In this document: one piece after another, positions 6,726 through 53,660 of the stretch
How positions within the stretch are numbered: position 1 is the stretch's first letter
How the letters are laid out: every line of letters begins with the position of its first letter
DNA from: Onchocerca volvulus
Lineage: Eukaryota > Nematoda > Chromadorea > Rhabditida > Onchocercidae
NCBI GenBank assembly: GCA_000499405.2
Contig: HG738139.1
Span: 16,468,858-16,532,857 of the forward strand
Reading direction: 5' to 3'
Length of the DNA stretch: 64,000 nucleotides
Position numbers and translations under genes: made by a program
The notes under the pieces: model-generated
Seen by the model: the letters and a program-made list of their open reading frames with translations, nothing else
The model's database searches: none
Told to the model about the DNA's origin: nothing

Positions 6726-8399
6726 TATTTGATTGTCCCATAACTCGAATAAAATTGAGCTGATAACAAAAGGTTTTGTAAATTATTACATGCTAATGAA
6801 AAAGATTCAGAAACTTCATAAAATCAAGAGATGCGGCGATAGAGCAGAGCAAAAATATTGCAATAGAATGGAAGAAAGATAGAAGTTTAATGTTGCACTT
6901 CAAAAGTAATCTTTTAATATCTGCAGAAAATCTACTTTAATATTTTTAAGATTTAAATTGAAAAATTTTCATTTGTTCGGATATATTTTGGTGTGTTTAA
7001 AAGATTTTGCTTCTACTGCACTGGGAATTTTATATGCAAATATATTTTTCATTAAAAAAATTTTCTTGAAATTCTTACCAAAGCATTATGTCCACCAAAT
7101 ATTTCATTAATAATATTTGTTTTTTACAAAATCTGAAACGCTGTAAAGTGTTTTTGAAGTACTGTACTCGAATTCCTCGCTATAATTTATACCGAAAGAG
7201 AATGAATATGAGAGATAGGAATTTATTCCAATGATCTATCATTTCATATTAGTTTCAGGACAATGTCAAAAACTTAATCATTGGAAAATAAGTAGGATAG
7301 AAAAAAATAATTTCAACCTCGATAACCATTACAATAGTTCCTCTCGAAATAAAACGAAAAACAAAAAAGTGTGGAACACATAATGAATAATTCTTAGCTC
7401 CTACTCATTATGCAACTTGCATTGATGTGAGAGGGGACAGTCCTTTCCTGAGTTAATATTACAAGGCAGTTATCATTACTCGTAGTGACTTTGATATGAT
7501 AGTATGTAAATGTTATCATCCAATGATTTCAGACTAATTGCTATATTCCTTTTTATTTATTCCTATAATTGCATTCCTCATTCAATTATTCACTGCTCAA
7601 TTATATTTAAATTTGCGATGTTCGATTATGTTTTTGCAAAGTTTATTTTCATTTTCTCATTTCTGTGTTTGCATTCTAATGAATATCAAAATAACAATCA
7701 TCCTTCATATGGTGATGAATTCATAAACTCAATGGTTTGTAAAAATAAATATTCAATAATAATTTTTCAGATTTATAATAATTTGAATTCTGTGCCGCAT
7801 TTATCTCTAAATGTTTTAGTGGATATGATTTCCTGATGAAAATGTCCTCGTCAAATGTATCGATATTATAAATGAAATTGAAACTCATATGCATAGAAAA
7901 ACTTATTCGAGCAGTAAAAGCGATGCATCATTCAATTTATTTTGAGCTGCAAAATCTGAAACAATTCGACAATTTTGTGTATCATATTTACGCTTATTTG
8001 AAAGACCATTTTGGTGGTTAACTGATTGCAGAAACAGCAATCTGGTAGACAAGTCTAGGAATAATCTTGGGATTTTGAAATCATTCCAATTTAAGGATAG
8101 AGAAAGAAGAGACTTACTAATAATGGTTCTATGATATGTAAATCATTTCATTCCCTAAGCTTTTCCCTCGAGATTTATTAACTTTGAAGAATCCATATAA
8201 ATTAATAAAAATGTGAATTTCACTCAGCGTTTTTAAGTGAGCCTTTTACTGAGACGTTTGCTCGTATCATTCTTATATTGCTAATCCCTTGGGTTGTGCA
8301 ACTATAGTTGTTTCTTTTCCCGAAGATTCATAATTCATACAAGAAGAAACTAGTAAATACCTGCCAAAAGTTTGCAGGAACATTCAGCAAGCACGTGTG

Positions 8400-9085
8400 C
8401 TGGTGTTATCAGCTTTAAATCTCCGAAAGTTCTTCACCGATTGCTTTCAAATCTTGATAAAACTTTGAATTTTTTTATTGATATACTTACTTTTCTCGCG
8501 TTTAAATTCCATGACAGATAAAAATAAGTTAGCGGACTGAATTTTTTGACCACCCTCTATATCACGCCTTCATGACCGGGCAGAATTTATTGATCACACC
8601 TTCATCAGCAGACTGAATTTATTGGCTACGCCTGCTTTCTGCATTTACCGCGCCAAATTCCTGCACTGTTCATTTTTACACAATGTTTCAAGCTCTTCAT
8701 CGATTGATTTGAAAACGTTATATTCGAATAGGCGTGTGTTTCCATATAGTTTCTACATAGATTCTATACAGACAAAACGCGTGCTTAAACTTTTTCATTT
8801 GTTATTTTGTGAAGAATGTAGTTGCGTCGCAGAAATGCCAAGATCTTATAGTGTTAAATAAAATATTTCGTTCAAGCAGTTTATGGATTATTTTTTTAAC
8901 TTCTAATATTAGGTCGTGTCTTGATTGCCTGCTCGTCCCACATTGTTCATTTTGACACAACCTTTTAAGTTCTTTATCGATTGATTTGAAATTTTGATAC
9001 AATGTTGCATTTAAATAGGCACGTGAAAGCATTTTTATAAATTTATTAGTATAATCTATGCACATAAAAAACTGTATATTTATTA
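8400..9085 (+). mobile_element. Three degenerate copies of a Helitron-associated repeat (family A)
   Basis: Three stretches, around 8420-8475, 8685-8790 and 8940-9075, share an ordered core. It runs: a TTCTTCACCGATTG-like block, then TTTGAAATTTTGATACAA-like sequence, then a GCATTTAAATAGGC-like block followed by a CGTG-rich step and a T-rich tail. Further copies lie on the opposite strand at about 11640-11790 and 13540-13620, next to Helitron protein fragments. That association suggests the repeat is a non-coding part of a Helitron or of a non-autonomous derivative. The copies differ by many substitutions, so they are old. No intact ends are seen here. Confidence 0.6.
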
Positions 9086-9443
9086 AATATTAATCTTCTT
9101 ACAGTGGTCCTAACTTCCATGTCAGCGTAATTTGAGAAGCTCATCACTTCTGTCGTCCTTTAGATGAGCTAGATAAATAAAGCTATGATTTTTGAGATCT
9201 AGAAGTATAATGAAACTGTTGCAATCATTTCCATAATAAAAAATTACACTTATATCACTATTTCATCTGTTTCTTGCAATTTTTTATCTTTAGCCATCTA
9301 TGCTTTAGCAAGCGCAATTTTAGACTTATGGCCTAATTAGCTTCGATGATCTTTCTCATCGATGTTTTTGCTACCATTGTTTTTACTGTTTGAAGATTGT
9401 TATCTAAAACCAGGCGTTACTAGTTTTCCCATACAGATACATC

Positions 9444-9446
<3 letters not shown>

Positions 9447-9485
<39 letters not shown>
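9447..9485. repeat. Poly(T) run of 39 bases
   Basis: An uninterrupted run of 39 T lies just before a copy of repeat family B. It could be an inverted poly(A) tail or plain slippage. Length in the assembly may be unreliable. Confidence 0.95.
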
Positions 9486-9487
<2 letters not shown>

Positions 9488-9499
9488 GTCTCTATAAGA

Positions 9500-9720
9500 A
9501 TAAACATGTTTTCCGCCAAAATGCTTCGATTAACAGATAAGCAGAATGATATTATCCAATCATGAGACCACATATTGGAGATCAGGAAAGGAGAAGGAGC
9601 CCCAAAAGGATTTGAAAGGTTCAGATTTTGGAGCAAATCAATTCGATTTCGACAATCATTCGGATTCAATGAATAGTTTAGTTCGGAGTTTCTACACCGA
9701 CGCAGAGACAAATTTACAAT
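9500..9720 (+). repeat. Dispersed repeat family B, copy 1
   Basis: This stretch has an ATGTTTTCCGCCAAAATGCT-like block, then GATAAGCAGAATGA, then TTGGAGATCAGGAAAGG, and ends near TTTCTACACCGACGCAGAGA. The same order of blocks recurs at about 53195-53330 on the + strand and at 12640-12840 on the - strand. The family is therefore interspersed. I cannot assign it to a known class; a Gag-like reading is possible but unproven. Confidence 0.6.
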
Positions 9721-10189
9721 GACTCAAATCGATGCAGCAATAGCAGTAAATTGTCAGTCAAGGAATCCTGTTCTTCTCTATAAGTGACAAAGGAAAGAAT
9801 AATCCATTGATCAATTTGCTTGGATATTCACAGAGAATTTCGCGGACAGTACTAGCACAATCGATCTGCTTTAGTTAATCGAAATAATACCATACAGAAG
9901 ATCAAACTAAGGTCGTCGTACTCTCAGAACGAAAGCATTGCGACGATTAATTGCAAATCAAACTGAGTAGTTAACGGGCATCAGCGAGCGGGCGAACAAG
10001 ACAAAAAATTACTCAAATGCAAACAGAGCGACGTGAAGCCAGATTTGAGATGCACAGTTGCGCGCACGTCGATTGTGTTCTGCAGCTTCAGATCTGCTTC
10101 ATTCTCAGTAGGATGAACACGAAAGCTCAAGAATAGCTGAAAAACGTCAACGAGAAACAGAAAATCAGCGTGAAACACGACTTCGTGTT

Positions 10190-11460
10190 CAGCAATTGCG
10201 CAATTATAATCACTTTGCATTCCGATATAACTCAGCTGATGATTATAGTTTGAGCCCGGATGTTCTCATCGACACTATGACTGAAGTGTGTCCATACTGC
10301 AAAGCTTTCAAATTTTGTGAAGAAACGAAAAGAATGTGTTGCGCCATCGGAAAATATAAACTGCTTCAACTTGGAGAACCATCAGAGCAGTTAAATACTT
10401 TGCTTGCCGAATACTGCTGATTCAAAGCAATTCATTTCTGTCATCAGGAAATACAACTCTTGCTTCCAAATGACATCGTTCGGCGCAGAAATCGTAAAAA
10501 AAAAAATTCAGAGAAAAGTCAAATTTATCATACAGCCGGCTTCCTACTTCTGTTGCCAGATGGTCAGCATAAATTCCTACAAATTTATTTCATCGATGAT
10601 AGCAATGATGAATCATACTGACATAGAAAGATCCGCTGTTTTCCAACTGCAACAACTTCTTCATGAAAAAAACAAATTGGTGTATTTGTTCAAAACGGCA
10701 ATTGACACGATGCCACCTGATACACACAAGATTGGTATTTATGCTGAAAAAACAGCTGCTGGAGAGCATATGCGAAGATTCAATACTCCAGTTATAGATG
10801 AAGTGGCAATTGTTATAGTAGAAGAACAATTCCAACCTATAGATATTGTTCTTCACGATCAATTGACATAAATTGCAGAAACTCATCGATACGAAGCTCT
10901 TTTTTTGAGATGGTCGATGAATATCACTTTAACGTTAAGACGATAAATCCAATCAGTGCCGAAGAAACAAGTAAGAAATGCAGCGGAATGAGCTATTATT
11001 CATATCGATTAATGATTCAAGAGAATAAGAACAATTACATTTTGAACTGCAGTCAGTTGTTTCACCAATATATCGTAGATATGTTGCAAAAATTGAAACA
11101 GAATGTTTGATATTCTCCGTTTGAATCAGACCAAGTTTCGCTCTGAAGAATACTTTCATTTGCGAGATGCAGTTGTAAATGACAGTAATACAACTAATGT
11201 TGGAAAACTAACGATTTTGCCGTCTTCATATACAGGCAGTCCATGTCATATGCATGAGTACGCTCAAGATGCAATTACATATGCTCGCCACTACGCGCTT
11301 TCAGACCTGTTCATTACATTCACATGCACTCCAGCTGGGATGATACAAAACCTCCTATTTCTTGGGCAGTAGTCGATGGATAGGCATGAAATCACAGACG
11401 TGTTTTCAGACCGAAATTGAAATCGCTGCTGGATTTCATGTTAAAAAATGAAGTGATCTA
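10190..11460 (+). pseudogene. Helitron Rep/helicase N-terminal region, broken by frameshifts
   Basis: Consecutive + strand segments in changing frames match the N-terminal part of Helitron rolling-circle transposases. In order they are: a Cys-rich segment with VCPYCKAFKF and MCC (about 10260-10350); the IRKYNSCFQMTSFGA block (about 10445-10490); a QIYHTAG and KFLQIYFIDD block in another frame (about 10520-10620); TAAGEHMRRFNTP (about 10750-10790); YHFNVKTINPIS with YYSYRLMIQE (about 10920-11030); and LTILPSSYTGSP followed by HMHEYAQDAITYARHY and DLFITFTC (about 11205-11335). At least four frame changes and several stops separate them, so no transposase can be made. The matching stops shortly after the FTC motif, before the HUH nuclease and helicase regions. 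This is established Helitron architecture; the age of the decay is inference. Confidence 0.9.
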
Positions 11461-11639
11461 AAATACGAAAACCAGACAATCTTTGTATTTACGCAGACAA
11501 TGGAACAACGAAAAATATTATATATCCACAAGCATTGCGAAATTAAATATACTAGAAACGTGCGCTTTCTTTGTTTTTCACTTGATCAGACTGAGCTCAG
11601 CAACGCATCTATATAAGAAGCATATGAAAATATGGCGTA

Positions 11640-11830
11640 TTTGAATGTAATATTGTGTCAAAATTTCAAACCATTGACAAGAACTTTCGGAGAATTTAGA
11701 TTTTGAACTAATATAGATAAAGCGCGTGTTTAAGAAATTTCGGAGATTTAAGATTTTAAAAAACGAATACTTACATTTTTATTCATATAGACTAGCAGAA
11801 CGGGCCATGCGGAGCGTTGCAGGGTACATC
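11640..11830 (-). mobile_element. Helitron-associated repeat (family A) copy with GC-rich terminal block
   Basis: On the minus strand this stretch has a GC-rich block (GTACCCTGCAACGCTCCGCA near 11825-11805) followed by TTCTGCTAGT. It then has two CTCCGAAA/TCTTAAATC segments and the family A core (GTTTGAAATTTTGACACAA, then a CATTCAAATACGCCAT block). A GC-rich block next to a CTAGT end resembles Helitron termini, although I see no clean hairpin. The orientation is opposite to the adjacent Rep fragment at 10190-11460, so it is probably not that fragment's own end. Confidence 0.5.
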
Positions 11831-12149
11831 CAGTATAAAAACAAATGAATCTCAGGAATTTATTAAAATGAAAAAAGACTGGTAGTTTGCACGATAGGAA
11901 AAAGCTATATGTATGGCTATTTAAAAGTATTTCTCAAGCAGTGCAAGAAATAGTATAGTAGAGCAGGAAGAGCTGAATTATTAAACTTCGAAAGTTATGA
12001 ATAGAAGTCGAATGAAGACGAAATACAAGAAATAGCCAAGATTATAACAGCAACTGACAAGCTGTAACAACTGATATTATCATTGGCTCTGAAAAGTTAG
12101 ACTTGATGCCAAATTCTTTTTGAATGATCAAGTTTATTTGATACTAGCT

Positions 12150-12405
12150 GGATCTGGCCTCACGAGCCAGGAAATTTAACAAGGGCAATAAAAATATTAA
12201 ACTTGAAATATGCTGTCATTACCTCCGTTGACCGTGATGATTTCTTAGATGGTGGCGCAAGTCAGTTTATAAAGTGTATAGAAGAAATTAGAAAGATTAC
12301 TCCAGAAACAACAATAGAAATTTTACTCCCAATTTTTTAAATAAAAAAGGTGCATTTGAAGCAATCGCTGTTGCATCACCTGATATCTATAACCACAATA
12401 TTGAA
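12150..12405 (+). pseudogene. Lipoyl synthase (LipA) fragment of bacterial (Wolbachia-like) type
   Basis: The frame beginning at the HEPGNL motif (about 12154) reads through [23 protein letters not shown] and TPETTIEIL. It then meets a stop caused by an apparent one-base deletion at about 12332. One frame over it continues NKKGAFEAIAV and SPDIYNHNIET to about 12404. These are consecutive conserved segments of the radical SAM enzyme lipoyl synthase, which inserts two sulfurs into protein-bound octanoate. The fragment covers only about 80-85 residues of a roughly 300-residue protein. The CxxxCxxC cluster region upstream and the C-terminal part are missing. There is no intron. Wording such as TSVDRDD and HNIET, and the lack of an intron, favour a Rickettsiales/Wolbachia source over the animal nuclear LIAS gene; that is inference without a search. 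It lies between Helitron remnants. Confidence 0.8.
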
Positions 12406-12639
12406 ACGCGCGTTGTCACGATAACGATTGGGTTGCTTCTTCTCGCTATTGTGATTCAGCTGGATGAGCAATAGATGTCGGAAAAGTTTTTTGCATCTTG
12501 TGTGACAAAGCCGAATTCTGTCGAGAAAGTTTTATTGATTGATGGAAGAGTGATTCTTCATATAAAACAATTATCAGAAAATATTCAGCAAGTTGATCAC
12601 TGGGTTATTTTTTTCTTCCTATGCTGTATCGGTGTAAGA

Positions 12640-12840
12640 ACCCGAATTTGAACTTGAACTCCGGTTCCAGTCCTGTCCTTCTAAGTCCTTTCGTTGCTCC
12701 TTCCATTTACCTGATCTCCATCTCGTGATCTCTTGATTGTTAGCCTCACTTTGTTTATTAATGAATTGAAGCGTTTTACCGATAAATATGTTGACATCTT
12801 TCGGCTTTCTCCGACAGAAAAGAAAGGAGAAAACGCACGT
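12640..12840 (-). repeat. Dispersed repeat family B, copy 2
   Basis: Read on the minus strand, this stretch shows CAACATATTTATCGGTAAAA, then AAACAAAGTGAGGCT, then GATGGAGATCAGGTAAATGG, then TTCTTACACCGATACAGCAT. These blocks follow the same order as in copy 1 at 9500-9720. It lies between the lipA fragment and the minus-strand Helitron helicase tail. Confidence 0.6.
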
Positions 12841-12964
12841 CTCTAATATGTTTAATTTCTAAGTGTTTGTAGGTGTAAATATTTTTTGTTGTTCCATTGT
12901 TTGTGCAGATTGTCTGGTTTGCCGACTCCAGAACATGCAGTTGTCTATGTGAGGAGCAATCTGA

Positions 12965-13540
12965 TCTAAAACCTCACAATTCTAAAGATTGGCTTTGAGT
13001 TTTGTTGTTAGCAATTGCAGACGACAATCGAATTGGGAATTACAATCTCTTAAATTGAAATATCGTATTCGTTGGAATCATGGGAAGGTAAGGAATAAGG
13101 ACATCATTTTTGAAAAATCTTTCAAGATTTTTGCTTCTACGACATTGCTCATTAGTTTTTTTGCTCCAAGCCACATGCCATTACAAAGCTTTGGCTGGTT
13201 GATATTTCGAAACATAATTGGCACACCGATTTTTAATTGCAGTACGTGCGATGGTATTCCTGGCAGATCGAGTGAATTCAAAAATTCTGTTGGATAATTA
13301 GCCGCTTCACCCTCTTTTACAACAATGTCGACCGAATTGCATCTAACTGCCTAGTTTTGAATGTTAGACTGAATAATACTATTAAATTCATAGATGTCTT
13401 TGTTCTTGGTCGCAAGAATAGCTCTTTCACTCAGCTAATCATGATTCTTATAACTGATTCGAATATTGGGAAATACTTTTTCAACCAATTCTCTTTTGGC
13501 ATCATTAAATTACAGATGTTATGAGGAATGAAATTCGTCC
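12965..13540 (-). pseudogene. Helitron Pif1-like helicase C-terminal region, decayed
   Basis: Read on the minus strand, the segments are, in order: an HNICNLMMPKENWLKKYFP-like stretch (about 13530-13475), WLSERAILATKNKDIYEF (about 13440-13385), [20 protein letters not shown] (about 13300-13240), [20 protein letters not shown] (about 13240-13180), a KLMSNVVEA block, and finally a degraded FKRL..FPIRL stretch with NNKTQ (about 13050-12985). These match the C-terminal half of the SF1B helicase domain of Helitrons; the last block corresponds to the motif before INKAQGQS. At least one in-frame stop and a missing residue in the VP(I)MLRN region show it is dead. Its orientation is opposite to the Rep-region fragment at 10190-11460, so the two either come from separate insertions or were rearranged. 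Confidence 0.88.
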
Positions 13541-13620
13541 AAGGTCAATCGCGTCTATCCGAATGCAATGTTGTATCAAAAATTTGAAGTGATCGGTGAA
13601 GAACTTGCGACATTGTGTCG
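13540..13620 (-). mobile_element. Helitron-associated repeat (family A), further copy
   Basis: On the minus strand the order is AAGTTCTTCACCGATCACTT, then CAAATTTTTGATACAACA, then TTGCATTCGGATAGACGCG. This matches the family A core seen at 8400-9085 and 11640-11790. It directly abuts the helicase fragment, which links the repeat physically to a Helitron. Confidence 0.55.
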
Positions 13621-15151
13621 AAAGTAACAACAAACATTTACACATTTATTTGTAGAGATTGATTAGAATCTTGCACTGTTGTGATATATCAAGTGAAGCG
13701 ACTAATCATATAAGAAATAACAGAAGCACTTGAATTAATGGGTGATGAGTAACAATTTAAAAAAAAAATGATAAATAAATGAAAAAAATCATGCCATCTT
13801 CGAGAGACAATAGCAGCTTGCATATCCATCAATGAAGTAACGCAAAAAGCTTTGCAAATTATTTAACAAATTGCTGAAAATTCTCACTCATTAAAGAGTT
13901 ACTTTTGCAAGGATAGAATTAGTTTTGCTACAAATAATTATGAAAGTGTTGCTTGATTCCGAATGGTGTGGTCTCACCAACTGCAGTGTTTCATCAGAGA
14001 TTACATCAGATCCTTTCCTTTTTTTTTTTTTTGTGCCTCTAAAACTTTTCAATCATATCACTGTCGGAATTATTTCTCCTTCTTTCTTTATATTTCAGCA
14101 TTGAAATGAAATTTATTTGCGGCACTTTGGTAAAATTATCCGAATAGGCAACAGGCAATAAAATGTGAAGATTTTTTTAAGACCCAGATTTTTAAAGATT
14201 CTAGTGGGTGATATTCTGTCGCGTCAAAAAAAAAAAGACAAAAAACAAATCTAGTCTCCAAATTTAAACAGATACCAAAGTTTATATCTGAAAAAATAGT
14301 AGAAAAAAGATCTGCGTAGCTGAAGTCTTTAGTTATATTTGAAAAATAATTAAGCTCAGTAAAATTCTGAAAATTGTTGAGTCAAAATTAATAATTGATT
14401 AGATGACATCTCATGAAACCATACGTTCTCATTTCACATCACTCTGATATTAAATGGTTCGTCTTTCATTTTATGTTTATCTTCAATTACTGATAACAAC
14501 GCAATTCTGGAATTTATTAAATTGAAATATAAAAAAACACACCAGTAAAAACTTATTTTAATAATCACCTCTGGCAATAGCAAGCTGGTTTCCTATACAA
14601 TTAAATTGTACGGTGAGGATTAAATGAATGCAGTCTACTATAAACATGATCAAATCACTTTTATGGAGTACAAATTTTTTTTATAGTGTTCCTACCATTA
14701 TTAATAATGGCAGTTACGCACCAATGCTGCCGATCATTCGACTTTTCGTTTCTGAGACATAATCAGTGCCAAGAATGATTCTAGCAAATTTTCTTCCTAA
14801 TTTTTCAAACACGAATGAAAAACTAGAAATTACCTCATCCTTCTGCCAAATGAAAAAATGATTGCACCATCATGATTATAATTAAATGACTGCAATACGC
14901 AAATGAATTTTCAGTAATACTGGACAGTAGCAAAATCAAAGAAAAATATACTACAAAATTGTTTTTTTTTTCCTTCTTTTTTTTTCACTAACAAAACATT
15001 CTTTCTGATTTTATGCTTTTCATCGTACTCTAACTAGAAGAAAAGTATAGCGGCTGAGATAAGCTATCGCGCTGAATAAAATGCTTCATTTTTAGAAAAT
15101 TTATTGGTTTTACAAATTGAAAAAGGAAAATAACAGGTAAGACATCTCCGA
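13620..15151. other. Intergenic, downstream of MPP10
   Basis: There is no gene I can support. The stretch is AT-rich with several T and A runs (for example near 14020, 14226 and 14960). It lies 3' of the minus-strand MPP10 gene and probably holds its 3' UTR and polyadenylation site, which I cannot pinpoint. Confidence 0.5.
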
Positions 15152-18100
15152 TCAGAGTTTATAATTTGTACTTAATTTCTTCTTTGCTGCATCCATTTCT
15201 GTCGTTCTATATTTCTTAACTTTTACCTGAAAAGAACAAATTAGTTAAAGTATTAAGAATTATTGCGGTCTTTGTCAAATATCAAATGACTGGATATATC
15301 TTGTTAATAAAAATGTGTAATTCAAAAACTTGATGAATTTTAGACTTCGATTCATTTGAAATATTAGCAATAAATAGCTCAAAGGACTAAACTTGGTTTT
15401 GATTAATATTCTGTTAACTTTTTAAATTTAATTTAAGGCCAATATTTCAGACGAATCCTACCTTCTCAGCGGTTTTAGTTTGAAGGCACTGGAAAAACGA
15501 AGCTGATGTGAGTTTTATGTTAGCGTTTTTGTTATCATATTGGGATATTAATTTTGGTTTTTTAGCAAGCATTTCATTCTTCGTAGTCGCAAGTTCTATT
15601 TCTTGTTTTTTAAATTGCTTAATATGTTGCCACTTCTGAAATTTAACAGTATTAAAAGTTATAAAATGCTATAACACAATCCGTAGAAACAGAGAGAATT
15701 GCTGCGGAAATTGTTAGCAATTATTCATCAAAAAAAGTTAGAATCTATAATGTTGACAGAATCATAGAATCAAGGTATTTCCCAAAATTAAGTGAGAAAA
15801 ATTTCTATACGGCTTTTTAAGTTCTCTATAATTTTAATATCACTTTTTTAAAATTACTTTTTATCTCTACCTTTCCACACGAATCTTAATTCAAAAAATA
15901 GAGAATACTATTTTGAAATTCTTCATTTTTGAAGAATTAGTGAAGAAAACCAAATGTCATCAAAGCCTTGTAGCTTGAAAAGGAGAATCATGTCCGTTAT
16001 GAAGAATTCAACTTTCATTAATAACTAACTATAAGGAATCAAAGTTAACCAACCTTTTTTTTGCGATGGGAGCGAGATCGGTCTGTTTTTGTTTTCTCAT
16101 CATCCCCTTTGAACGCACCACTAATATGTTTATGTATTTCTTCTGGAGCTAAAAGTACAGCATCGGTGGATGCTAAAGGTCCTACTTCCTCCTTTTGAAG
16201 TGAAGGCATGTTATTTAAGATACGTACTTCCGAATGGACCTGAAAAAAAGATGCAGTAATAAAACAAACTTCTATATAATTCATTGGAATCATTAAACTT
16301 GTTAGTTACAAAAGAGAAGGAATGAAATTAATAAAGAAAGTGAAGCGATGGAATTAAATTTTTTCAAATTCAATAAAAGTATGAGGAAGAAATCCATTTT
16401 TTCTTCGATAACAAACTTACTTCAGATGGGATGTAACGATAATGGCTCAAGGCATTTAATTTCTGGAACAATGATGATAGCAGCTTTTTAATTTCTTCGT
16501 GTTTCGCATTAATCTTCTCTTCATTTCCTGTCTATAGTAATTGGAGATAGCACTTCTGATTCAAATTCAAAAAAAAAAAAAAAAAAAAAAAAGGGAAAAA
16601 ATCACCAGTAAAAATTTAAAATTTGATATTACATACTAAGATTTTTCCAAAATGGAAACATTACTTCATATTGGGTTTTCTGATACTGTTCTTCATAAAC
16701 TTCCGCAAGAGACTTTTTTACGGTTTCCGATTCTACAACTGGTGCCCGATACGTTACATTTGTTTCCGGTTTATGTTCTGTCCTCAACACATCGTCAAAT
16801 ACCTGAAATTCTCATTTAATTTTTTCCGAGATTTTGATAGACATAAATAAATACTAGAAAATCGTTCCTTACCAAGCTTTACGATGACGCCATCCTTTTA
16901 AACTGAATAATAAATATAAATTAAAGATTAAAAAATAAGATTTTAATTTAAAATTTCATAATCAAACTTAAAAAATTATCGCTTACTCTATCCTTGATTC
17001 GTTGAACTATCTTCGCTTCTAGCTGAGCAGTTGTATCCACTGTAATGACTGGAGCTGAAAATATTGAGCAAAGATTATAGTACTGCAATTAACAACAAAA
17101 ATATTAGTAAGCATTCAGTTACGAAAATAAACTTTATGGTAAAAATATAGCAATAATTATTTAAAAATAACGCATAATGACACTAAACCGCAAGGTGCCG
17201 ATTGATCGAAATCAAGATGTTTCTCCAACATCGTGTTTTCCTCCCTTTCGATAGCTGTCACTTCACCACTTAAATCCCAACTTCTTGGAGCTAAATTTGC
17301 TTGTTCTATTGAAGAGATTCGTTCACGGAGCTGAAAACAATGAATTTGAATTTCATGAAATAAAGTGCTGTGATAATATCACTACTATTTCAGCCTATTT
17401 GAGCAATTTAGCATTTTCACCACAGTCTCTTCCAGTTACGATAGATCTAGCTCTTTTGCACTGATTTTATTACAAGACTTGTCTTCTCATCAGATTCTGA
17501 TCTTACTTTCTTCTGTCGATGTTGAAATTCAGTTTCATTATTCCTTTCGCCCACCTGACCAAGAAGAACTGTTGCTTCTAAAATGTCAAAAATGGTTAAA
17601 ATTAACTGAATAAATTCACAACCATGAAGATGAAATGAAAAGGAGAAAGCGCCGAATGAATTAAGGAACCTTGACTACTTCCATGGCTGTCATCATCATC
17701 ATTTTTATCTATATCATTAGCGATATCATCAGCAAATGTAACTCTTTTCTCCGTACGATTGTTCATTTCGATTGACTGTGAATTCTATAAAAACATTATC
17801 AGAAATTACAGATTTTAAAGTGAAAACACAACACAAATGTATTCATTTCAAGAATCAAAAGCAAACCTCCGTCGATTTGTTCAACTTCTTCGAAGCAGAT
17901 TTTATGCCATTCTTTTTATCATTATTATTTCTGCTCTCATAAAAATCTGCATAATCATAATCAGTTTGCGAATTTTTAAAATCATCACCATCCTGAAAAA
18001 AATTTGTACTATATGATTCAATAGTAACTTTCCGAGGAATTAAAATTTGTCAGATATTTTGAAGACAATTTTCGAAAAGTCATGGAAATTATTAACCGCA

Positions 18101-20595
18101 ATTAATAAGGATTAATTTGCTTTAAACTGTTACCTGAATAATCACACAATTTTCATTAGTTAAAAAACGAACCTTATCAAACTGTTCAAAAAAATTTTCA
18201 TCTAAGTGCGCCTGGTCCCTTTCTTGCTTATCCAAATATTCCTCCATCTCCGCCAATGAAAAAAAATGATCATCAACTGCACTCTTCCAACGCTTTTTGG
18301 AAAAGCTGTCAGAAATTCCAGAAACGCAAACACTTTCGCTATTCGATGCATTGCTATCGTTGTCATCATCATTTTTACACATTTTACTATCACTGATGTT
18401 CTTATCAAGTCTCTGAAAATATATCAAAAGGCATTTTATTAAAAACCAATCAGTAGATTTATAAGAAACAGCAGAAAGAATTTTCCAAAAATCTTCTCTT
18501 CTAGAAAATATACGCACCTTAATTTGATCTTCTGTAAGGTTAAAAAGATCAGCGTTATCCTCTTCAGTGTTATCGGAACTTTCATCTTTAAATTTAGGTG
18601 CAATAACTGAAGAAAATGAATCGCCTGATTTCTCGTCAGGTTTCTTATCTGTAGGTAATTCAACGTCCAAGAAATGCTGAAAAAATCATGACTTTCGAGA
18701 AAAGACAATACGAGACAATCAAAACTTTTGGAATAAATAAAGAAGAACGAAAAACCTTTTTTTTCGTGAAATATCGATAAAATTTTTTATTTCCATAGGC
18801 AATTTGTTGCCAAATCGTTTCGCTGTTGGTTGTAATCAATTCTTGTGATATACTCGGCACTTCTGGCTCTACTCCGTTCACAAAAGCATACGCTCTTCCA
18901 ATATTATCCACAAATATATTGTGTTCGCTACGTCTTGAATCATATTTAATTAGAAAAAAAGAAAAAAAAGAAATCATAAATAAGAACCAAAGAATCTAAA
19001 TATCTGATTACATTTAAAAAAAAGTAGTCACCTCAACCATAACGATAATGGATCATCTAATTTCGGCCATATATTCAAGTTATTCTCTTCTAAATTTATT
19101 CCAGTGATAAATCTGGCTTCTTCTTCTAAATGATCATTGAAAGATGATGAATTGTTTGTCAGCATTTCTTTTTGATTCATTTTTGGAAATTCTTGCAAAA
19201 CCTTTGCTGGTGAAGTTTCTGGATTTTTTGCGAGGAACATTTTTGCATTATTCGTAACTTTTGCGGAGGATTCCCTTGGGCTTCCATCTGACTTATTCCA
19301 CGCTGTCTTCATGTTTTTTCGCTGTGGTTTTGTTAAATCAGATTCTACATCTTTCACGGAAGCAACCTTACTAAATTTTTTTATAGGATTTCTTTCACTG
19401 TGCACTTCAACATGTGCTCTATCATTTTCCAACAGTTCTCTTTTCTTTTTCGACATTCTTTTTGTTTCAGTTTTTCCTTCCATTAGCTTCTCCCCACTAT
19501 TATCTTCGTCAATGCATTTTAGTTGTTCTTCAACAATTTCTTCTAATTCAGGCATTAATGAAGTCCTTTTACGGCACAGTTTCACTGGAGTCATCACCTT
19601 CTGAAAATGAAGGAAAAAATTCGAATAAATCAACAGCTGGCTATTAAGATCCAAAAAATTTAAATGAAACCAACTCTAACTTTCTTTGGAGTTAATTTAA
19701 TACTAATTGCTTTCTGGATATCCCCATTAATGCCTGAAAATACAAAACTCATAAAGAAAGTTACTAAAACAAACAAATGAGACAAAATACAGATGAATTT
19801 CATTCAGAATGAATAAAATTATACACACACAAGCACACACAAAAAAAAGTAATGTCATAGAACCAAGGGCATAATAAAGTATAATACCTGCATCGTTGGA
19901 CTCCATACTTGAGCAACGCGATCGCGATCGTGTTCGTAAAGCAACTGGCGAACTCTGAGTACTTGAATTTTCCTGTACTTGCAAAAAATGCAGAATGAGA
20001 ACATTAAAAATGACTTTTGTACATATTTCAAGAACTAAAATGAAAGAAAATCAAATTCGTCCACTACTGTTTAACAATCTACTTTTAGCATAATCTATTT
20101 TTTCATAAATATGTTCATCATCATTTAGCAGATCTGAAAATTAAGTGAAAATCTGATGACTGTGAGATATTTAAAAAACTCATAGCAAATAAAAGAGTAG
20201 AAATACTAAAATTGTCTGGAGGTTGAATTTCCCAATTTCTATTAAGATTTGAAATTAAAATAAATGACATAAAAAGCAAGATAATCACCAATAACTCGGC
20301 AAGAAAAAATGCACCACGGTTTCCTTTTAACAAAATGAAAGGAAACTTACTTTTTTTTCGATATTAATCTCTTCTGTTCGTTTGCTTTCATCATTTGATT
20401 CTATTTTGGTAAGTACTAAAATCAGATTTATTTCAATTCATGATTTTCCTAGTATTAAAATTGACTTGAACTGATTAAAACATCATATATATCTTGTTCA
20501 TTATTACCAACTCCCAAAACGTCGATTGAAGAACATGTAGAAAAATCCTCTGGTTCTTGTGATGGCAGCCTACGTGAACGTCGCCGTAATGACAT
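15152..20595 (-). CDS. mpp10: U3 small nucleolar RNP protein MPP10, with long N-terminal extension
   Basis: MPP10 is a component of the U3 snoRNP/SSU processome in the nucleolus and is needed for early 18S pre-rRNA cleavages. Eighteen exons join in one frame (893 codons plus stop): 20595-20508, 20415-20351, 19972-19888, 19733-19681, 19600-19032, 18933-18756, 18676-18518, 18412-18134, 17992-17867, 17784-17670, 17577-17507, 17330-17189, 17054-16987, 16802-16665, 16531-16421, 16239-16054, 15635-15462 and 15226-15152. Family hallmarks from N to C are ETIWQQI, DDHFFSLAEMEEYLD, YDYADFYE, KRVTFAD, PRSWDLSGEVTA, APVITVDTTAQLE, KKSLAEVYEEQY, LNALSHYRYIPSE, TDAVLLAPEEI and a Lys-rich tail. Human MPP10 is about 680 residues. 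The excess is exons 1-5 (about 286 codons), basic and Ser-rich, with RRRSRRL, RTRSRSR and TPVKLCRKR motifs and no MPP10 similarity that I recognise. The exon 5 to 6 junction uses a weak GTGACT donor. Without that splice, exon 5 ends in its own stop, so a separate upstream gene is the alternative. Confidence 0.9.
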
Positions 20596-20599
20596 ACTG

Positions 20600-23500
20600 A
20601 TGCTGGATATCGAATCTTGCACAGGCTTTCGGAAGAACTTTTTCTGGATTGATTAGTTTTTGCACGTCACCTTTATTCCTCAAGATTGTGCAATTTGCTT
20701 GAGATCTCTTCCAGAAATTCTGAAATTGCTTGTCACAAAAAAAACATAAAATGACTACATAAAGCTTGGTTTGACACGATTATTTTAAATAAATTTGACT
20801 TCAGTAATCTTTTAAAATGTGCTTTCTTTTTAGTAAGGCTAATCAGAGATGTAATTCAGACAAATATTGATAATAACGATAATGACCAGTGAAGTTGATT
20901 GATAACGACATGATTTTTTGCTTAAAATGCTTCTGAAATGGATAATTTGTGGGGCTCATCTTATCAATGTCGCGGAGAAGGGTCACGTACAAAAGATTCT
21001 ATCATTCGTCACGATTATAATCATAATATGGTTGGAAGTGGAAGATCTCATAAAACAAACTGAAAATAAACTTTCCCAGCACAAGGCTAGTGATGGCGCA
21101 ACTTAGCATCATCCAGAATAGAGAGAAGAATGAATGATTGATGATAAAGATAGAATGAGTAAAAGACTACATTAGAGATGACAATAAATGAAAAAAAAAA
21201 AAAAAAAAAGGACAAATCAAGACAAAAATGCCTCTTCCAAGATAAAGGACAATGAGGAGATTCAGACTTGATAGGAACCATCCCAGATAAACATACGATG
21301 TCATCACCCTGCGATCTCACCTGAATTTTCGGCTTTCAACAGTCAGATTTCTAGGATTTGCATTCCGCTACATCTCTTTCTTAGTTCTTCTATCCATCTT
21401 GTTCCTCTAACTACTCTCACACTTCTCTTTTGCTGGGCAATTCTCCTCTAATACGCAATGTCATTGAAATGATTGTGGAAAGAAGTGTGAACTGCACGAC
21501 GATGGCCTTGATGATATCAGTGGCATCTTATTCGAAATAACGTAAACTTTTGAAGAGGAGATGAAGTTTGGATCTCATAGTAACTCTGTTAGGATTCCAG
21601 ACCACTACATTTTGACAGTTGAATCTGTTCAGTGTGTCCTTAAACAAGAATGAAATGTTTCAAAATGAATCATGCTATATCAAACTGCAATTCACCATCA
21701 GATGGTGGTATCCATCCTAATTATGGTAAGATTTGCAAAAAGTTGTGCACACGTAGATACACGTAAGTGGTTCGCATATTCCGGATGCTGTCACCACTGT
21801 TGATATTCATGCCATCACCGACATATTGCTCGAAACGAGCTATAAAACAAAGATTCTCATCGCGATCAGAAAAGGAAGTAAATGAGAACGATGTTCAAAA
21901 CAAAACTTTGCAAAGAGAAAAGGTAACATGGGCCTTGAATCATCATGAATCGAGAAGAAATGGGAAAATACGACTGTTGAAGAAAGTAAGTGAAGCACAA
22001 AGTTGCCATTAAGAGTTTATAACGATAGTTCTGATATTAATATGACACCATAAATTAAAAATATTGGAAAATTGCAGCGAAATTTCTTAAATCAGTACTT
22101 GGATTTTGTGCACTCGAGATTAGCTATTTTATGGTTTTCGGGAATTACCGAAACTGCGTTTATTATCTTGAAGAACTCGGTATTGCTTTCCATATTCTAA
22201 AGTTATCGCATTCAAAGTTTTACGATAATGAACGAACGCAAGATTTACAAGACCAGTTCTTGCCCGTGATTTCATTTTCTTTTTTTTTTAGCATATTGAA
22301 ATGCTCACTTGTTCAAACGTTATAATTCAAATCAGAAATGTCTAGATTTTTCTTTTTTTTTTTCTCTTCTTATATGTAAGCATATGTTCATTCTTGTATT
22401 TCACGCTAGCGGCAATAAAACTAATTTTGTTAGCAAAAGCACTATGTTTTTCTCAAAACTATTTAAGGTAGAAGAGCAAAAACATCACGATATCGCTGCA
22501 TGAAATGCTTTATGCATTTTTTGATTGATTTCAGAAATAAAATAAAACTGGCGAGAAGTCAATTTTAAGTGAGGACTTTTTCTCCAAAATAAAATGATTC
22601 ACTCCTCCTTCTTCCATTGGAAATAAATGTTAGACAGATTTTAATGATCCTATCTTAATTGCCAATTTTTAGGCACATCCCTAGAAAGATCTTTGCCAGA
22701 ATATACAATATAACAGATATTTCAAAGTAAATATAAAGTAGCTTTGCGTTAGAAAAAAGTGTACTTATTAGTATTTTTTACATTGCCAATTAATAATTTA
22801 TTAACTAGTTTATATTCCCTTTTTATTATAGAGTATATACAATATAACATCCAATATTTTGAAATACTATATTGAAAAATCTCTTGCCGTGGAAAATCTC
22901 TGAAAAAAAAAAAAAAAAAAAATTATCAACAATCTTCTACCTTTGTATAATTTATAACCGGTCACATTATCATCCAATCATTTTATCACTAATTAGCTGT
23001 CACCGACTAGTAATACTTATTTTTATTATCTCAAAGATTAGCTGTATCCAACTGCTATTCCAATGCATGGAGATAAGATTGTCGTCAAGAACCGACAATT
23101 GGGATTTTTAATGATTCCTAATGAAATTCTTCATGATGTCATGAATTTTTTTTTTTCTTTTTTTTTTAGTTCTTAAATTTACGTAATTATACATCTTAGT
23201 ATCATTTTCCATCATCACAAAAAGTTGAATCGACTGTGTTTCTTTATTCATTTCTCCAAGTTTCTATTACAAATTTTACCTCTTTGAATTGATTTCGTAA
23301 TTCCGCTTCTTTTACTTTTTCGTTTCTTTTCTTGAAGGAATCTTTGATGGAAATACTTGACTCCTTCCCTTCGTGAATAATTGTATTCTTTTCAATTACA
23401 AAATTTCGTGTAATTTGATCTGACGAAGACTATTTTGAAATTGAGACAGTGAATATTTTTATTCTGCAGGGTCCTGTAATAGCTACTTCGACACAGGATA

Positions 23501-24660
23501 TCCGCAAAAAAAAATCGATACCGCGAACATCAAAATGACGAAAAGATATTATGGAGCATTTGTATTTCTCAATTCTTAAATTAATTTTCATTTAAATATC
23601 AATAAAGGGTTCGATTTATTAATCGAAAATTAGTTACAATCATTTTCACTGAAGATTCGAAATGCCTTAGAAATGGGAACGAACGTTTAAAGAACGAATA
23701 ATGGGCGAAGTTTTAAAATTAATCAGCAAATGAGCTTTCGAAAAATTTGTTAGCATTTCTTTTATATCACTGATATAGCACCAGGAGGAGTAGGAAAAGA
23801 ATGGAAGGGCAATTTAGGCTTCAGCGCAGAATTCATCCAAAAGCTGAAAGAAATAATGAAAAGTTGTTCTCGAACTGCCCAATGGTTTTGATTAAATTAA
23901 ACTAATAGCCTAGTGGTTTAATGAATGGATTTTGATAAGTAAATGGAACTTCAATAAACTGGCAGTTAGATATATTTTGCTAAAATCAAGTTGGTGACTT
24001 TCAGGAACTCACAACTAGCGTCATTATATTCATTGAATAACAACTGCATCACTCTTTTATCACTGATGTCGTAATTTCGATAAGCAATAAAACTGAGAAC
24101 AAATTCCAATATCAAGTAACTCTGAATATTAGGAATACGACTTTAAATTTCTAAATACATCTCTGTGTCAAAAAAAGAAAAAACATGGATTATTGCAAAA
24201 ATACCAACAATATATTTGGAAGTTTCCTGAATAATTCTGATAATTATCATAAAGATCACAAAATTGGTCATGTCATTAATGGTTCACGGTACTGTATTTT
24301 TCTGTGGCCACCCGAAATTTGAATCAGAAATCTTCCCACGCGTGAGAAAGCTTTCTTTTAACCTTGCTTTCTCTTTTTTCCTTTTATGAATTCTTGATAG
24401 CTACTTACACTTTTCTGATGAAATTTCTCCAATTTGTTTTTTATATGGACCGAAAAGTTTAAAAAATATTTCGCACCTCAAATGAATTTTTTACCGTAGT
24501 AGTGGATTTTTCCTTAGTCAGTGACTCGAGAATTGAAGAAGGTAGTCTTTAAAAAGAAATTTTAAATGATATATTCAACTCAACAAAAACAAGAATTGGC
24601 AAATATGCTGAAATATTATAACAAAAATAATGTCCATCTCTTTGTAAAATATCAATTGTA
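20600..24660. other. Intergenic between divergent MPP10 and Kv channel genes
   Basis: This stretch separates the start of the minus-strand MPP10 gene from the + strand channel gene, so it probably holds both promoters. I see no convincing exon. Reading frames are short and interrupted, and A/T runs lie near 21190, 22275, 22345, 22905 and 23150. Nothing resembles a tRNA or a known RNA gene. Confidence 0.45.
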
Positions 24661-31171: not shown

Positions 31172-34100
31172 ATGGATTCCGCAGTTCTATTTTTTGCTGC
31201 TCTGCCATTAATAATACTCCTATTGATGATATGGTATGTTTTATTTGCATAAATGAAATAGTACTAATCAAATTTGATTTTGTGCTTTGTTTGTTACACG
31301 ATACATCAGAATCCTTTATCAGTCACTCGGAGTTTTTTGGGTATTCTAATATAGCATTCACTGCATATGCATGAAATATGAAATAAGTTAGTGCTCGAAC
31401 ATCTCATATTTAAGGTGTTGTGAAGCTAATGAAAGTTTCCTATATGTAGTGAATAGTCATGTCGTTTTTCTCTGACAATTTCCATGGTGATATAACTTCA
31501 TACTTATTTTCCCAAACATCGAATTATTACATATTTCAGTTTCATTCTTTTAACAGATAATCGGCAAAATGCATTTGCAAGTGAAAAAATTTTTATTTAT
31601 GTTGTTACAGTTCGCTTTTACGACAGTATTTTCATATTTTTATTATTACGTATTCACTTTCTTCTGCATTTCTCTGTCATAATAGTTAAACTTATAACAG
31701 AATAGTTTTAAATCGCACGTGGTTTACTAGTATTTTTATATTTGGTAAGTTGTTTACATTTATTCTTGATTAATATATTCTTATTCCCAAACTTTACGTC
31801 ATTTTGGATAACATTTTCTAGGTTCCGGATATGGAAGAATCGTGGTGTGATAGCTTTTTTTCATCCATACTGCAATGCTGGTGGTGGTGGTGAACGCGTT
31901 TTATGGTGCGCTATCAATGCTATGCAAAAAAAGTAAGTATTTAATATGATGCAGTATCATATAAAATAATATCCAGAAGGTCCAACTAATGCTATGCAAA
32001 AAAAGTATCTATTTAAAAGAAATTATCTTTTTGATGAGTTTGTCTTTTGCTTAGAAATTGTACTATCTGACAAGCCATCAGATATACAGTATTGATCTCG
32101 TATCAATTCTCATAACAGGAAATAAAGTTTAGTTTCTGTAAAAGGTCTTGTACTTTTCGATAAGTACTGAATTTTTATTTATTATTCTGCCGTTCTTCAA
32201 GTAAATTTACAATTTATAAAAATAAAATATCACCCTGTTGTATTCTGCTTGGGAATCTTAAATCTACATATCTTTTTTTTCTTGCTTATTTAATTTTATT
32301 TCTCTAAAATCTCAGTAGAGCTTTGAAAATTTTTTTTTCCTTTCATATGATTTTCAATAAGCTTGCAACATTCATAGTCTTCATCCAGTGCTGTCTTCAA
32401 ATGGGAATTTTGAAATAGATGATGCCTTGCTACCGAGAATACTTTCATTTAAGCTTTGCCGAAGTAGTGAGTGCATTGTTGCAAACATTAGAAAATACGT
32501 AATCCTTTCAGAGTGGCTTTCCGGCCATCTGTCCTCATTCTTTTTCTTTTTTTTTTTTTTTATGTTAAAATTCCAGTTCATTATGAATTGTTAAAATTCA
32601 GTTCATTAAGAAACTAACACAGAAGTTAAATAAAAGGAAATTTTGTCCTATAAATTTTTAAAAAATTAAAAAAAAAGAATATGATGTAAATGAGGATAGA
32701 TAACTTATGGAAAATGGTTGTCTGCTTTTGACTACAGTAGAATGATCATTAGATAGCTAATAGGAGCGAAATACATTGGGCGTTATAAAATTTATCGAAT
32801 GTTAAAATTTTAAAAATGGATAAGCAGAATGTAACAAAAAATCAATAAAATGTAAAATAATCGTTGCTGAGAAGACTAATGTAATTGAATGACTTTTAAT
32901 TATTAACATTCTTTTTATAACTTTCTAGAAAATTCAGTTTATCACTTGCAAAATTTTTTTTTCTGTCCGCATATTATTACCTTTTATATTTTTTTTTACA
33001 TTATCGTTCTGACAATTAAGTGCAGTTCAAGAATATTCTAAAACAAAATCGAAAAATTTCTTTAGATATGGCAAGAAGTATCGATATGTGATTTATACTG
33101 GTGATGTGGATGTGACACCTCAAGAAATCTTGCAGAAAGCGAAAGATTGCTTCGACATCGAAGTTATTGATGCTGATTTGCAGTTCATCTATCTTCGGTA
33201 TTTTTTTTAATAAGAATAGTATCGTAAATTTAGAGTAGATAATTGTAATTTTAGAATTAATTGTATTACTGACTAGTATAATTCAAATTAAATATCGGCA
33301 ATATAACTTCCGACAATTATAAATTTCTATATTCCGTATCACATGTTATCGAACATTCACGAAATAACAAAAAAAAAGTCTTTTCTGTAAACTGTCAAGA
33401 AAAACTTCTTAAAGATCTGCAGTGTAATTTCGTTTATAATTTCCAGTATTTAATTTAGAAAATTTTTTTCTTATATTTTTAGTACACGGTCATGGTTGGA
33501 ATCGCGAAATTACCCATACTTCACTTTGCTGCTTCAAAATTTGGCTGGTTTTCTGGTTGGTGTTGAGGCGTTGCTCCGATACAATCCACATGTTTTCATT
33601 GACACAATGGGCTATCCATTTGCTTTACCTTTATTCAGGTTGCTGTTAACTTTATCGCAATCCGATATATACTTTTTTATTTTTATTGCACAGAAAAACG
33701 TAAAAACAAAAGGTAATATTAATTTTCATTTTCTATTTTTATAGTTGATGGAAAATTGCGAAATTTTGTGGTTTTGTGGTAAGATCAGCAAATGTCATCT
33801 TATAAAGGATGCAAAAGTATTAAGTTTATATAAGATGTAACAGCAGCATCGCATTATTTTAATAAAGAAAGATTTCATTTTTTTATATAATAAAATTAAG
33901 TAAATTTGCTAAATCAATGATATTTTCTTATTTTTATTTGCTTGGGAATATGTTGGTAAACACTTTAGCTTTAACAAGAGTAAATACTATGTAGTTGTTT
34001 TTTTCAGGTGGCTGGCTGGATGCAATGTTGCTTGTTATGTGCACTATCCTGTTATTTCCCGTGGTTAATTTCTTTTTCATTTATATTGTTTTCTAAATAT

Positions 34101-38591: not shown

Positions 38592-40809
38592 ATGAAGATT
38601 TTCTCACTCCAAGTGTTTCACAAAGGCTCTGATGGCAAAGCAAAAGCTCTCAAATCCACTCATGACTTGAGCAGTTTCAGTTTTTTCCAACGAAGTTCCG
38701 TTCAAGTTAGTGCCCAATAACTGATTTATTTGCTTGGAACAGTGTGGCATTTGCGATTTCAGCAGTTCTTAATTTATTTTGAATCATTTAATATTTCGTG
38801 ATCGAGAATGTAAAATAAGGGGGGCATGTTATATTCTGCTTGCATAGAGTTTTTCTCAGCTAAACTAGTTTTAATTGGATTGTAAAGATATTTTCTCAAC
38901 TAAGCTGATTTGAATTGAATTGTAAAAATAACATATGAATATTTGCTTATTATACTGATGCGAATTGATTTTTTAGGAATTTATGATTTTTACGGGGAAA
39001 TTATTGGTTGAACGTTCTGCCTTGTCAAGTCGAAGTTCTGTGAAGGAAAATGAATATTTTTGTCACATGTAAGTCAAAGTACTTAATTCTATCGTTATAT
39101 TAGATTTGTTTCGTTTATAAGATCTAGTCTTTGTCAGCTTTGTGTTTTTCAGTATATCTTTTTCATATTTTTAGATTTCATGCATCATATTTAAAAGTCT
39201 TGTTTTTACGAATAACTCGAATTTTGTTTCTCAACTTCAAGAAAATTCCAGGCAACTCTAAAATAAATGAAACTAGGTCTTGTAAATCTTTTGATCTTCA
39301 GATTCATACGACAAGACGGACTCGCGGGCATTTGTATAACGGATGCAGAATATCAGCAACGTATTGCTTTTACTATGTTGCGTCGAATTTTGGATGATTT
39401 TGCAATTAAAGTGCCGCCGATCCAATGGGTCTGCTCAGTTTTTTTTTTTTTTTTTTAATTTCATTGTTTTTTTTTCTAATTCATTTCTTCAGAATTAGTA
39501 GATTGAAATCCGAAATTTTAAATTATTTGGATGGGAATCAGGAAGTACTCAGAAGTAATAAGAGAAATATGGATAATCGATGTGAATACATAACTCAGTG
39601 TGTCTAACTTGAGCCAGATCATCGGCAAAGAATAATGTTAAAATAAATAGTTGTTTGAAAATCAAATTCTTTTTTTAGCCATTTTAATTAGGAATTTCGA
39701 TGACGCTTTGAAGAAGGAAATAGCTGGCAATTTTAAATTCAAAGACTTGAAGAGCTTACTTGAATATCTGATTTATATCTGTTTCAATAAGAATAATGAC
39801 TTCTGTAAGATTCTTTATCAGTTTTATTTAAAAGCGGAATAAACATAGAAGTAATGCATTTTAAAATGTAGCCAAGGAGAATAATAAACTAACATGGAAA
39901 TCAGTTAACAATTTAGTCGGAAAACTTTGCTCTGTAGATTGCTTTTGTGTCATTTCAAAAGAGTATATTTCAATCTGGATCACTCTGCGGAATTTTTTGA
40001 TCGGATTTTGTACTCCTGACAGAGATCTGATTGCTTAAAAAATTACTTTCTTATTGCGATAGAAAGCCGTAAAAATTAATTGCTTCAATGCATTATTCAC
40101 AACTGTATCAAAAATCATTCTATCACAGATAGAGTGCAGAAAAGTATTTTCTAGACAACGAAACAGACAAAGAAAAAATGGTAAAATTGAAAATTTAACT
40201 TGTAAATTGAAGGTGCAAATAATGATTTGGTATCTCTCCATTACAATACTTTTAAACAAAAACTATCTTTTGTTTAGTTCTCCGATAGTCTACTTGTGCT
40301 TGTTACAGATATTTAAGCGAAAGATTAGTTTGTTATTTTAGGCACAAATAAAAACTGAGAAAGATTGCACTTATACAGGTTTACCGGAGCTATTGATGAA
40401 ATGGCAAAATCCTCGCGAAGCAGATGCGATGACACGAGTTCAGGTCATGAGTAAATTTCTTTCTTTTGCATTTGTAATGAAAAGGATTAATGAAAATCTT
40501 TTGAAATTATCCTCAGAAGTTTTCTTACTGCTCTAATAATTATTTCATATGCAACGTTACAAAAATAAAAATGTTATTCGACGACTTTGTTTTGCCGTTC
40601 ATTGCTTTGAAGTGTTATCTATATTGTAAATATATTTTCAGGAAGAAGTAGAGGAGACGAAAGTGGTACTGCATAATACGATACAGTCAGTACTGGAACG
40701 CGGTGAGAAGCTTGATGACTTGATCGCTGCTAGTGAAGGCCTCTCTAATCAAAGTAAATTGTTTTATACCCAGGCAAGAAAGATGAACAAATGTTGTAGC
40801 TGGGTTTGA
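38592..40809 (+). CDS. ykt6: YKT6 R-SNARE (v-SNARE)
   Basis: YKT6 is a lipid-anchored R-SNARE without a membrane helix that works in ER-Golgi, endosomal and autophagosomal fusion. Five exons (38592-38705, 38977-39068, 39302-39428, 40343-40444, 40642-40809) join to 200 codons plus stop, against about 198 in human. The N-terminal longin domain includes THDLSSFSFFQRSSVQ and LAGICITDAEYQQRIAFTML. The linker carries QNPREADAMTRVQ. The R-SNARE motif spans VVLHNTIQSVLERGEKLDDL, with the zero-layer Arg in LERGEKL. The C-terminus is KMNKCCSWV, so the last four residues CSWV form the prenylation box and the Cys before it is the palmitoylation site; human YKT6 ends CCAIM. The start is the only Met that gives the expected longin length. 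An acceptor-like AG lies 15-20 bases upstream of it. Confidence 0.96.
38850..38935 (+). repeat. Imperfect tandem duplication in YKT6 intron 1
   Basis: Two adjacent units of about 41 bases share TTTTCTCA(G/A)CTAA, then CT(A/G)(G/A)TTT, then AATTG(G/A)ATTGTAAA. The repeat lies about 40 bases upstream of exon 2. It is seen directly, and no function is evident. Confidence 0.7.
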
Positions 40810-41070
40810 ATGATCCCACCTCTTATATTTCTCATGTTTCTTATTTTTTTTGATATGTTCCATTTTTCAAGATGATTCATCATACTTTTGTATCTTCTTT
40901 TTGTCATATCTTGAAAAATCATTAGCATGTTTTGCTGCATTGGTGCCATTTTTTAATATTGAGCTATTACTAAACTGCATGTAAGTTCATAATAGAGATT
41001 TACTTTGGCAGGTGTCATACTATTCCATTTAATTCATTTTTTAGTGATTTGAGGCATCATTTAATAAAAA

Positions 41071-41126
<56 letters not shown>

Positions 41127-45900: not shown

Positions 45901-46392
45901 TCAATGATGCACTTATTCTTGCACGAAATGTATGGTTGTTATTGAACCGTTGATTAGAAATGATTTTAAAATCCAAAATGCAAAGCAGAAATTGATAGCT
46001 TGATACTTTTGTTCGGTTTTGTTGTTTTTTTTTTTCACAAAAATCAAATATTATCAAATTTATTGATAAAAAGCATCATATCATGTCTAATTTGAAAACA
46101 AATAATTATATTCACATGTAATGATACGAAAGTAAAATACTTATTACACTAAAAACTGAGATTTCTAATGTTGTTGTTGATTGTTTTTCTGATGATAAAT
46201 TGAACTTGAGAAGTCATATTCTATATTTTATAGTGTGGTTTTGATGTATTCAACGCACTTGATCTCATGGACAACAAAAAAATACTGGAAGATCTCAAGT
46301 TTGGTATTGGTGATGGAAATTTGCAATATTATCTATATAATTGGAAGTGTCCCGATATAGCACCGGAGAAAATTGGTCTCGTGCTGCAATAA
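42987..46392 (+). CDS. nmt: Glycylpeptide N-tetradecanoyltransferase (N-myristoyltransferase)
   Basis: NMT transfers myristate from myristoyl-CoA to the N-terminal glycine of cytosolic and membrane-targeted proteins. Nine exons (42987-43187, 43354-43450, 43569-43785, 44123-44240, 44573-44742, 45018-45126, 45412-45582, 45759-45929, 46234-46392) join to 470 codons plus stop, within the family's usual length. After a variable charged N-terminus come the family blocks [72 protein letters not shown] (the signature that binds acyl-CoA), [45 protein letters not shown], and [16 protein letters not shown] ending in GLVLQ. The C-terminal Leu-Gln, whose carboxylate acts as catalytic base, is intact. The start Met opens the only long upstream frame, so exact N-terminal length is less certain than the rest. 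Confidence 0.97.
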
Positions 46393-53190: not shown

Positions 53191-53194
53191 TAAA

Positions 53195-53660
53195 TATGTT
53201 TCTCGGCAGAATGCTTTAATTAACATGCAAACAAGGCGAGGTCATTAAATGACGAGGAGAAATTGGAGGTCAGGAAAGAAGAAGCTCCACATGAGGTTCA
53301 GATATATGAGGATATGAGTGAAGAGAAGAATCGCTAGCATAAAAAGGATATACAAGGTTCGGATTTTAAGAAGAGTCGCCTTTTTATACAAATTCTCTCA
53401 GATAGTTTTCGACAAGAGCAGTTTTTCTATAAAGTTTCTATAATAGTTCGACTCAGTTCGACAATCCCGCAACGACACAATCAACGCTTCAACAGCAATA
53501 AATCGACAACCCCAATCGACAAGAGCGACAATTCAGCAGAAAGCCACTGTTAGTATCCCTTCATTATTTGTCAAGTATTGTTCCTTTATTTTTCTATTGT
53601 TATAATACTGTGTATAATATCGTATTTCCAATAAAACCTATTACCGATTTTGCCGAGTCA
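53195..53660 (+). repeat. Dispersed repeat family B, copy 3, with possible LTR-like tail
   Basis: The stretch begins ATGTTTCTCGGCAGAATGCT and continues through ATGACGAGGAGAAATTGGAG and TCAGGAAAGAAGAAGC, in the same order as copies at 9500 and 12640. It extends further than they do, with repeated short ACAA/CGACAA-rich blocks (about 53405-53540) and an AATAAAACCTATT segment near 53631. Such an arrangement is compatible with a retroelement end, but I see no terminal TG..CA pair or tRNA primer site. Confidence 0.45.

Follow-up and report, generated by a model that had tools for sequence, protein, structure and literature searches.

How did a piece of a bacterial lipoyl synthase gene (lipA) come to lie among transposon remains in a nematode chromosome? 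The question is raised by a stretch of 64,000 nucleotides of Onchocerca volvulus (assembly GCA_000499405.2, contig HG738139.1, positions 16,468,858 to 16,532,857 of the forward strand), which is referred to below as the window. A preliminary description, made from the letters alone, had read at 12150..12405 about 80 residues of lipA, with no intron and with one single-base deletion, and had regarded them as a probable transfer from Wolbachia. The observation is confirmed by the present analysis, and its interpretation as a Wolbachia transfer is supported. The location given for the fragment stands as well, but its edges do not, and the corrected ones are listed in Table 1 together with the other features discussed here.

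The fragment derives from Wolbachia. A protein-to-DNA scan across the genomes of bacteria and archaea returned 68 loci, and the top six are all from Wolbachia. By blastn, this nuclear Wolbachia piece (nuwt) is nearest to lipA of wOo, the Wolbachia of Onchocerca ochengi (NC_018267.1), with 94.4% identity over 251 columns and 387 bits; the differences are 13 substitutions and one missing base. DNA identity to the five other Wolbachia is 78–89%, i.e., 88.9% for the strain of Litomosoides brasiliensis, 86.5% for that of Dipetalonema caudispina, 85.7% for wStur, 84.5% for the Dirofilaria immitis strain, and 78.0% for the Howardula strain. A chance match to lipA can be rejected: when the window was shuffled 50 times by a first-order Markov procedure, the top score against the six Wolbachia loci was 41 bits. 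The seven-row DNA tree joins the 250-base nuwt with wOo at 91/89, just below the star threshold of the tool; support in this tree is moderate, and three of its four inner branches are left open. The protein tree, computed after realignment with MAFFT of rows whose offsets were slightly unequal (by one residue in the rows of database proteins, by more in several of the rows for eight distant bacteria), places the nuwt with wOo and with P0001, a protein 98% identical to wOo LipA. This grouping is weak (85/45), with 13 of 29 inner branches open and the bootstrap unsettled. Taken together, blastn, the DNA tree, and the comparison with the lipoyl synthase gene of the host (LIAS; see below) group the nuwt with Wolbachia and not with the nematode, which is the relationship that the preliminary description had anticipated. 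A separate observation concerns protein P0024, which is filed under Ceratitis capitata and shares 97% identity with wOo LipA in an alignment covering 80% of the query; this record is perhaps symbiont DNA or contamination.

The nuwt corresponds to residues 79–162 of the 290-residue LipA of wOo. Its 84 residues are distributed over two frames (60 + 24): a base that is present in all six Wolbachia lipA compared is missing near 12324, after which the last 24 residues are read in another frame. The lipA frame in the window contains no intron. The translation of 12128–12337 matches four lipoyl synthase models (hmmscan, E from 5e-17 to 3e-20), every match remaining under the whole-protein cut-off, as is expected for a fragment; the translation of 12337–12405 reaches lipoyl synthase models at E 0.045 and 0.18 only. 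Truncated at both ends and broken in frame, the gene piece is dead, as had been noted, and it presumably has no function at present.

Table 1. Coordinates of the lipA nuwt, its flanks, and related features. Positions without a prefix are those of the window; a prefix denotes a contig of the assembly; percentages are identities to wOo.
Feature	Location	Strand	Remarks
lipA nuwt	12158..12407	+	Internal fragment of Wolbachia lipoyl synthase gene (blastn, site table, hmmscan, residue numbering)
Piece of the right-hand repeat family	11469..11835	+	Opposite orientation; 3′ end with hairpin terminus at about 11835
Single-match stretch	11836..12157	.	Between left repeat end and nuwt; matches itself alone in own-genome search
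Helitron 3′-terminal hairpin-like remnant	12133..12157	.	Last 25 or so bases of the preceding row, directly left of nuwt
Filler	12408..12425	.	18 bases between nuwt and Helitron; no source found
Decayed Helitron-like element	12426..13540	-	Multi-copy; interrupted at left end; adjoins right side of nuwt via filler; may extend further right
Wolbachia-like stretch	8222-8406		78%
Wolbachia-like stretch	9075-9369		82%
Wolbachia-like stretch, alaS	17367-17470		86%
Wolbachia-like stretch	22738-22829		84%
Wolbachia-like stretch, coxA	63913-64000		84%; continues off the window; may be Wolbachia or mitochondrial in origin
Other lipA places	C3:5384170-5384590		
	C3:17625070-17625251		
	C3:24245370-24245476		
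	C3:20766602-20766711		
	C5:7313815-7313910		
	C5:5666447-5666514		
	C2:24873625-24873764		
Host LIAS gene	C4:150,894-155,290		Several exon-like pieces; nuwt on the same contig, elsewhere

The nematode transposon debris reported around the fragment turns out to consist of Helitron-like pieces on both flanks. The right-hand element retains, in the frame 13078–13350, the remnant of a Pif1-type helicase (PF21530, Pif1 2B domain, E 4e-14). A hairpin followed by a CTAG-like terminus at the 3′ end is a hallmark of Helitrons, and such a terminus can be recognized by eye in many, though not all, of 19 copies of the repeat end. On these two features, the Pif1 2B remnant and the hairpin ends, we take the flanking repeat to be a Helitron.

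This repeat is interrupted at the nuwt junction. The right-hand element continues beyond the break point of the window in all 29 other copies examined, which are the best 29 of the 40 other matches listed, 40 of 427 candidates having been scored. The continuation scores of all 29 copies lie above every one of 200 control positions, whereas the flank in the window scores 12, which is less than the control median of 14. The filler is unsupported as a second Wolbachia piece, the longest exact match of 12408–12427 in 800 kb of wOo being 11 bases. On the other side of the nuwt, the region 12121–12165 was compared with 19 aligned repeat ends and scored 34 in the forward direction, with 8 bases inside lipA, and 30 in reverse, wholly outside lipA; among 1500 random positions of the window a single one was higher, with 51, and it overlaps the known Helitron end, the runner-up reaching 29. 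The hairpin being almost a palindrome, the remnant at this place fits in both orientations. Six related copies show a distance of 258–293 bases between the matching segment and the hairpin end. Should the remnant be the terminus of the right-hand element, the nuwt and the filler would have replaced most of the last part of that element.

In our opinion, these features are almost certainly the outcome of a patched chromosome break. The donor would have been a Wolbachia ancestral to the wOo line or a sister of it. Some of its DNA would have reached a germline nucleus and, without comprising a complete gene, would have been joined into a break within an old Helitron-like element or next to it, with loss of the 3′ part of that element; the inserted piece would then have decayed by a one-base deletion and substitutions. 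The closest copy of the right-hand segment, among the matches listed, is 86% identical, compared with the 94% identity of the nuwt to wOo, which fits an old Helitron that received the bacterial piece later, copy divergence not being an insertion date.

The best surviving alternative, which we nevertheless consider improbable, is capture of the lipA fragment by a Helitron, which would have brought it to this place by transposition rather than being resident and patched. Helitrons are known for capturing gene fragments, and Helitron-like sequence is found on either side of the nuwt. A captured piece would be expected to recur, accompanied by the same Helitron, at two or more sites. In the searches of its own genome, however, no second copy of the fragment with the same flank was found: the 401-base query 12100–12500 has 14 matches, of which the one at full length is the locus itself, and the stretch to the left likewise has a single match. 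Moreover, the remaining lipA pieces in the genome differ in their ends and identities.

At three of the 13 substituted sites (12166, 12258, and 12268), the state of the nuwt recurs in each of the five other Wolbachia but not in wOo, and at a fourth (12269) it recurs in four of the five. Five sites (12171, 12179, 12213, 12244, and 12331) show states confined to the nuwt, and the remaining four (12195, 12265, 12366, and 12385) are ambiguous, the nuwt state occurring also in one or two other strains. About four of the 13 changes are therefore best assigned to the wOo branch, later than the split, and the agreement of the nuwt with at least four of five other Wolbachia at these sites shows the donor to have diverged before they arose in wOo. 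In the codons of 12258 and 12269, P0001 has the valines of wOo, which makes the split of the donor older than the last ancestor that wOo and P0001 share. Our guess is that P0001 represents wOv or close kin. Scraps of this kind, in which older lipA states are kept, can serve as symbiont fossils predating the divergence of the living Onchocerca strains.

The same sites bear on the possibility that a Wolbachia read or contig was misjoined into the scaffold. O. volvulus carries live Wolbachia, according to a passage in Cotton et al. (2016; PMC5310847), and the junctions of the nuwt are known from the assembly alone. Against such an artefact, which we regard as highly unlikely, stand the 13 substitutions and the deletion in 251 columns, compared with the 99.51% identity between wOv and wOo quoted in that source (PMC5310847), and the older states at four sites, which are incompatible with a read from the living symbiont. 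The nuwt is situated within a contig of 16.6 Mb and is flanked there, in the assembly sequence, by host nuclear DNA, namely multi-copy host repeats and a stretch for which the genome search gave itself as the single match. This agrees with the earlier opinion that the fragment is not simple contamination by a bacterial contig. A live Wolbachia contig in the assembly was also rejected, as genome searches yielded no intact, full-length, or near-identical lipA among the best candidates scored. Two tandem repeats were found in 8000–24000, neither of them at the nuwt.

An origin of the nuwt from the host's LIAS, as a pseudogene or a stray exon, can be dismissed with near certainty: such a gene does exist on the same contig (C4), but its identity to the nuwt is just 34% in an aligned piece of 47 residues and 41% in another of 17, against 94% at the DNA level for wOo, and its conserved frame is interrupted between TSVDR and DDIEDGG, apparently by an intron, where the window continues uninterrupted. 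The better nematode match with corresponding exon edges, named beforehand as evidence against a transfer, did not emerge.

Nuclear Wolbachia fragments as a kind are already known. Cotton et al. (2016) count 531 putative, largely non-functional nuwts in O. volvulus, seven of them longer than 1 kb (PMC5310847); no difference in kind was found between them, as characterized there, and the present locus, which is likewise a short, fragmented piece without apparent function. Sections of the survey of 22 filariae by Vancaester et al. (2025) list 653 regions for O. volvulus, of which 96% stem from supergroup C, and give 434 bp as the average length of supergroup C-derived pieces in Onchocerca (PMC12693587). 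The lipA nuwt is probably contained in a published list of such pieces; the words "lipoyl" and "lipA" are absent from the main text of the survey (PMC12693587), and the titles and abstract openings examined do not name the locus. With hundreds of such fragments in published filarial genomes, the nuwt is an ordinary one and matters little as a single locus.

Its junction is of more general interest. A passage of the same survey associates Onchocerca nuwts regionally with Helitron density, and in the same paragraph O. ochengi and O. lupi are counted among the species without a repeat association, so that the statement on Helitrons is not fully consistent (PMC12693587). To this catalogue, as far as those sections describe it, the present locus adds a single Helitron-like element interrupted, at base level, at a nuwt junction (PMC12693587). 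It is conceivable, though we hold it rather doubtful, that the patching of Helitron breaks with Wolbachia DNA is the direct mechanism behind the published association in Onchocerca. If this is true, the locus would be a base-level example of such patching, which in addition retains lipA states older than the living wOo, and the Helitron junction would offer a testable reason for the association.

A DNA search of the genome with the lipA region of wOo found eight lipA places with identities of 74–94%, among which the nuwt is the closest; the seven others are 74–90% identical to wOo. Four of the eight overlap in lipA coordinates and have different ends, and they are therefore separate copies, which probably arose by separate transfers rather than by subsequent duplication within the nucleus. 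The nuwt and the other lipA pieces together suggest that the entry of Wolbachia DNA was repeated, at different times.

The window contains five more Wolbachia-like stretches, 78–86% identical to wOo, and two weaker matches of 34–37 bases (14342–14375 and 33448–33484). The latter are of the same size as the two short matches, of 43 and 34 bases, obtained in 10 shuffles. For three of the other stretches an origin from RNA genes was rejected, since none of the corresponding wOo loci (L144–L146) reached the gathering score of an Rfam family. No Wolbachia-like stretch was found in 40001–60000; three of the five stretches and the lipA piece fall inside about 9 kb.
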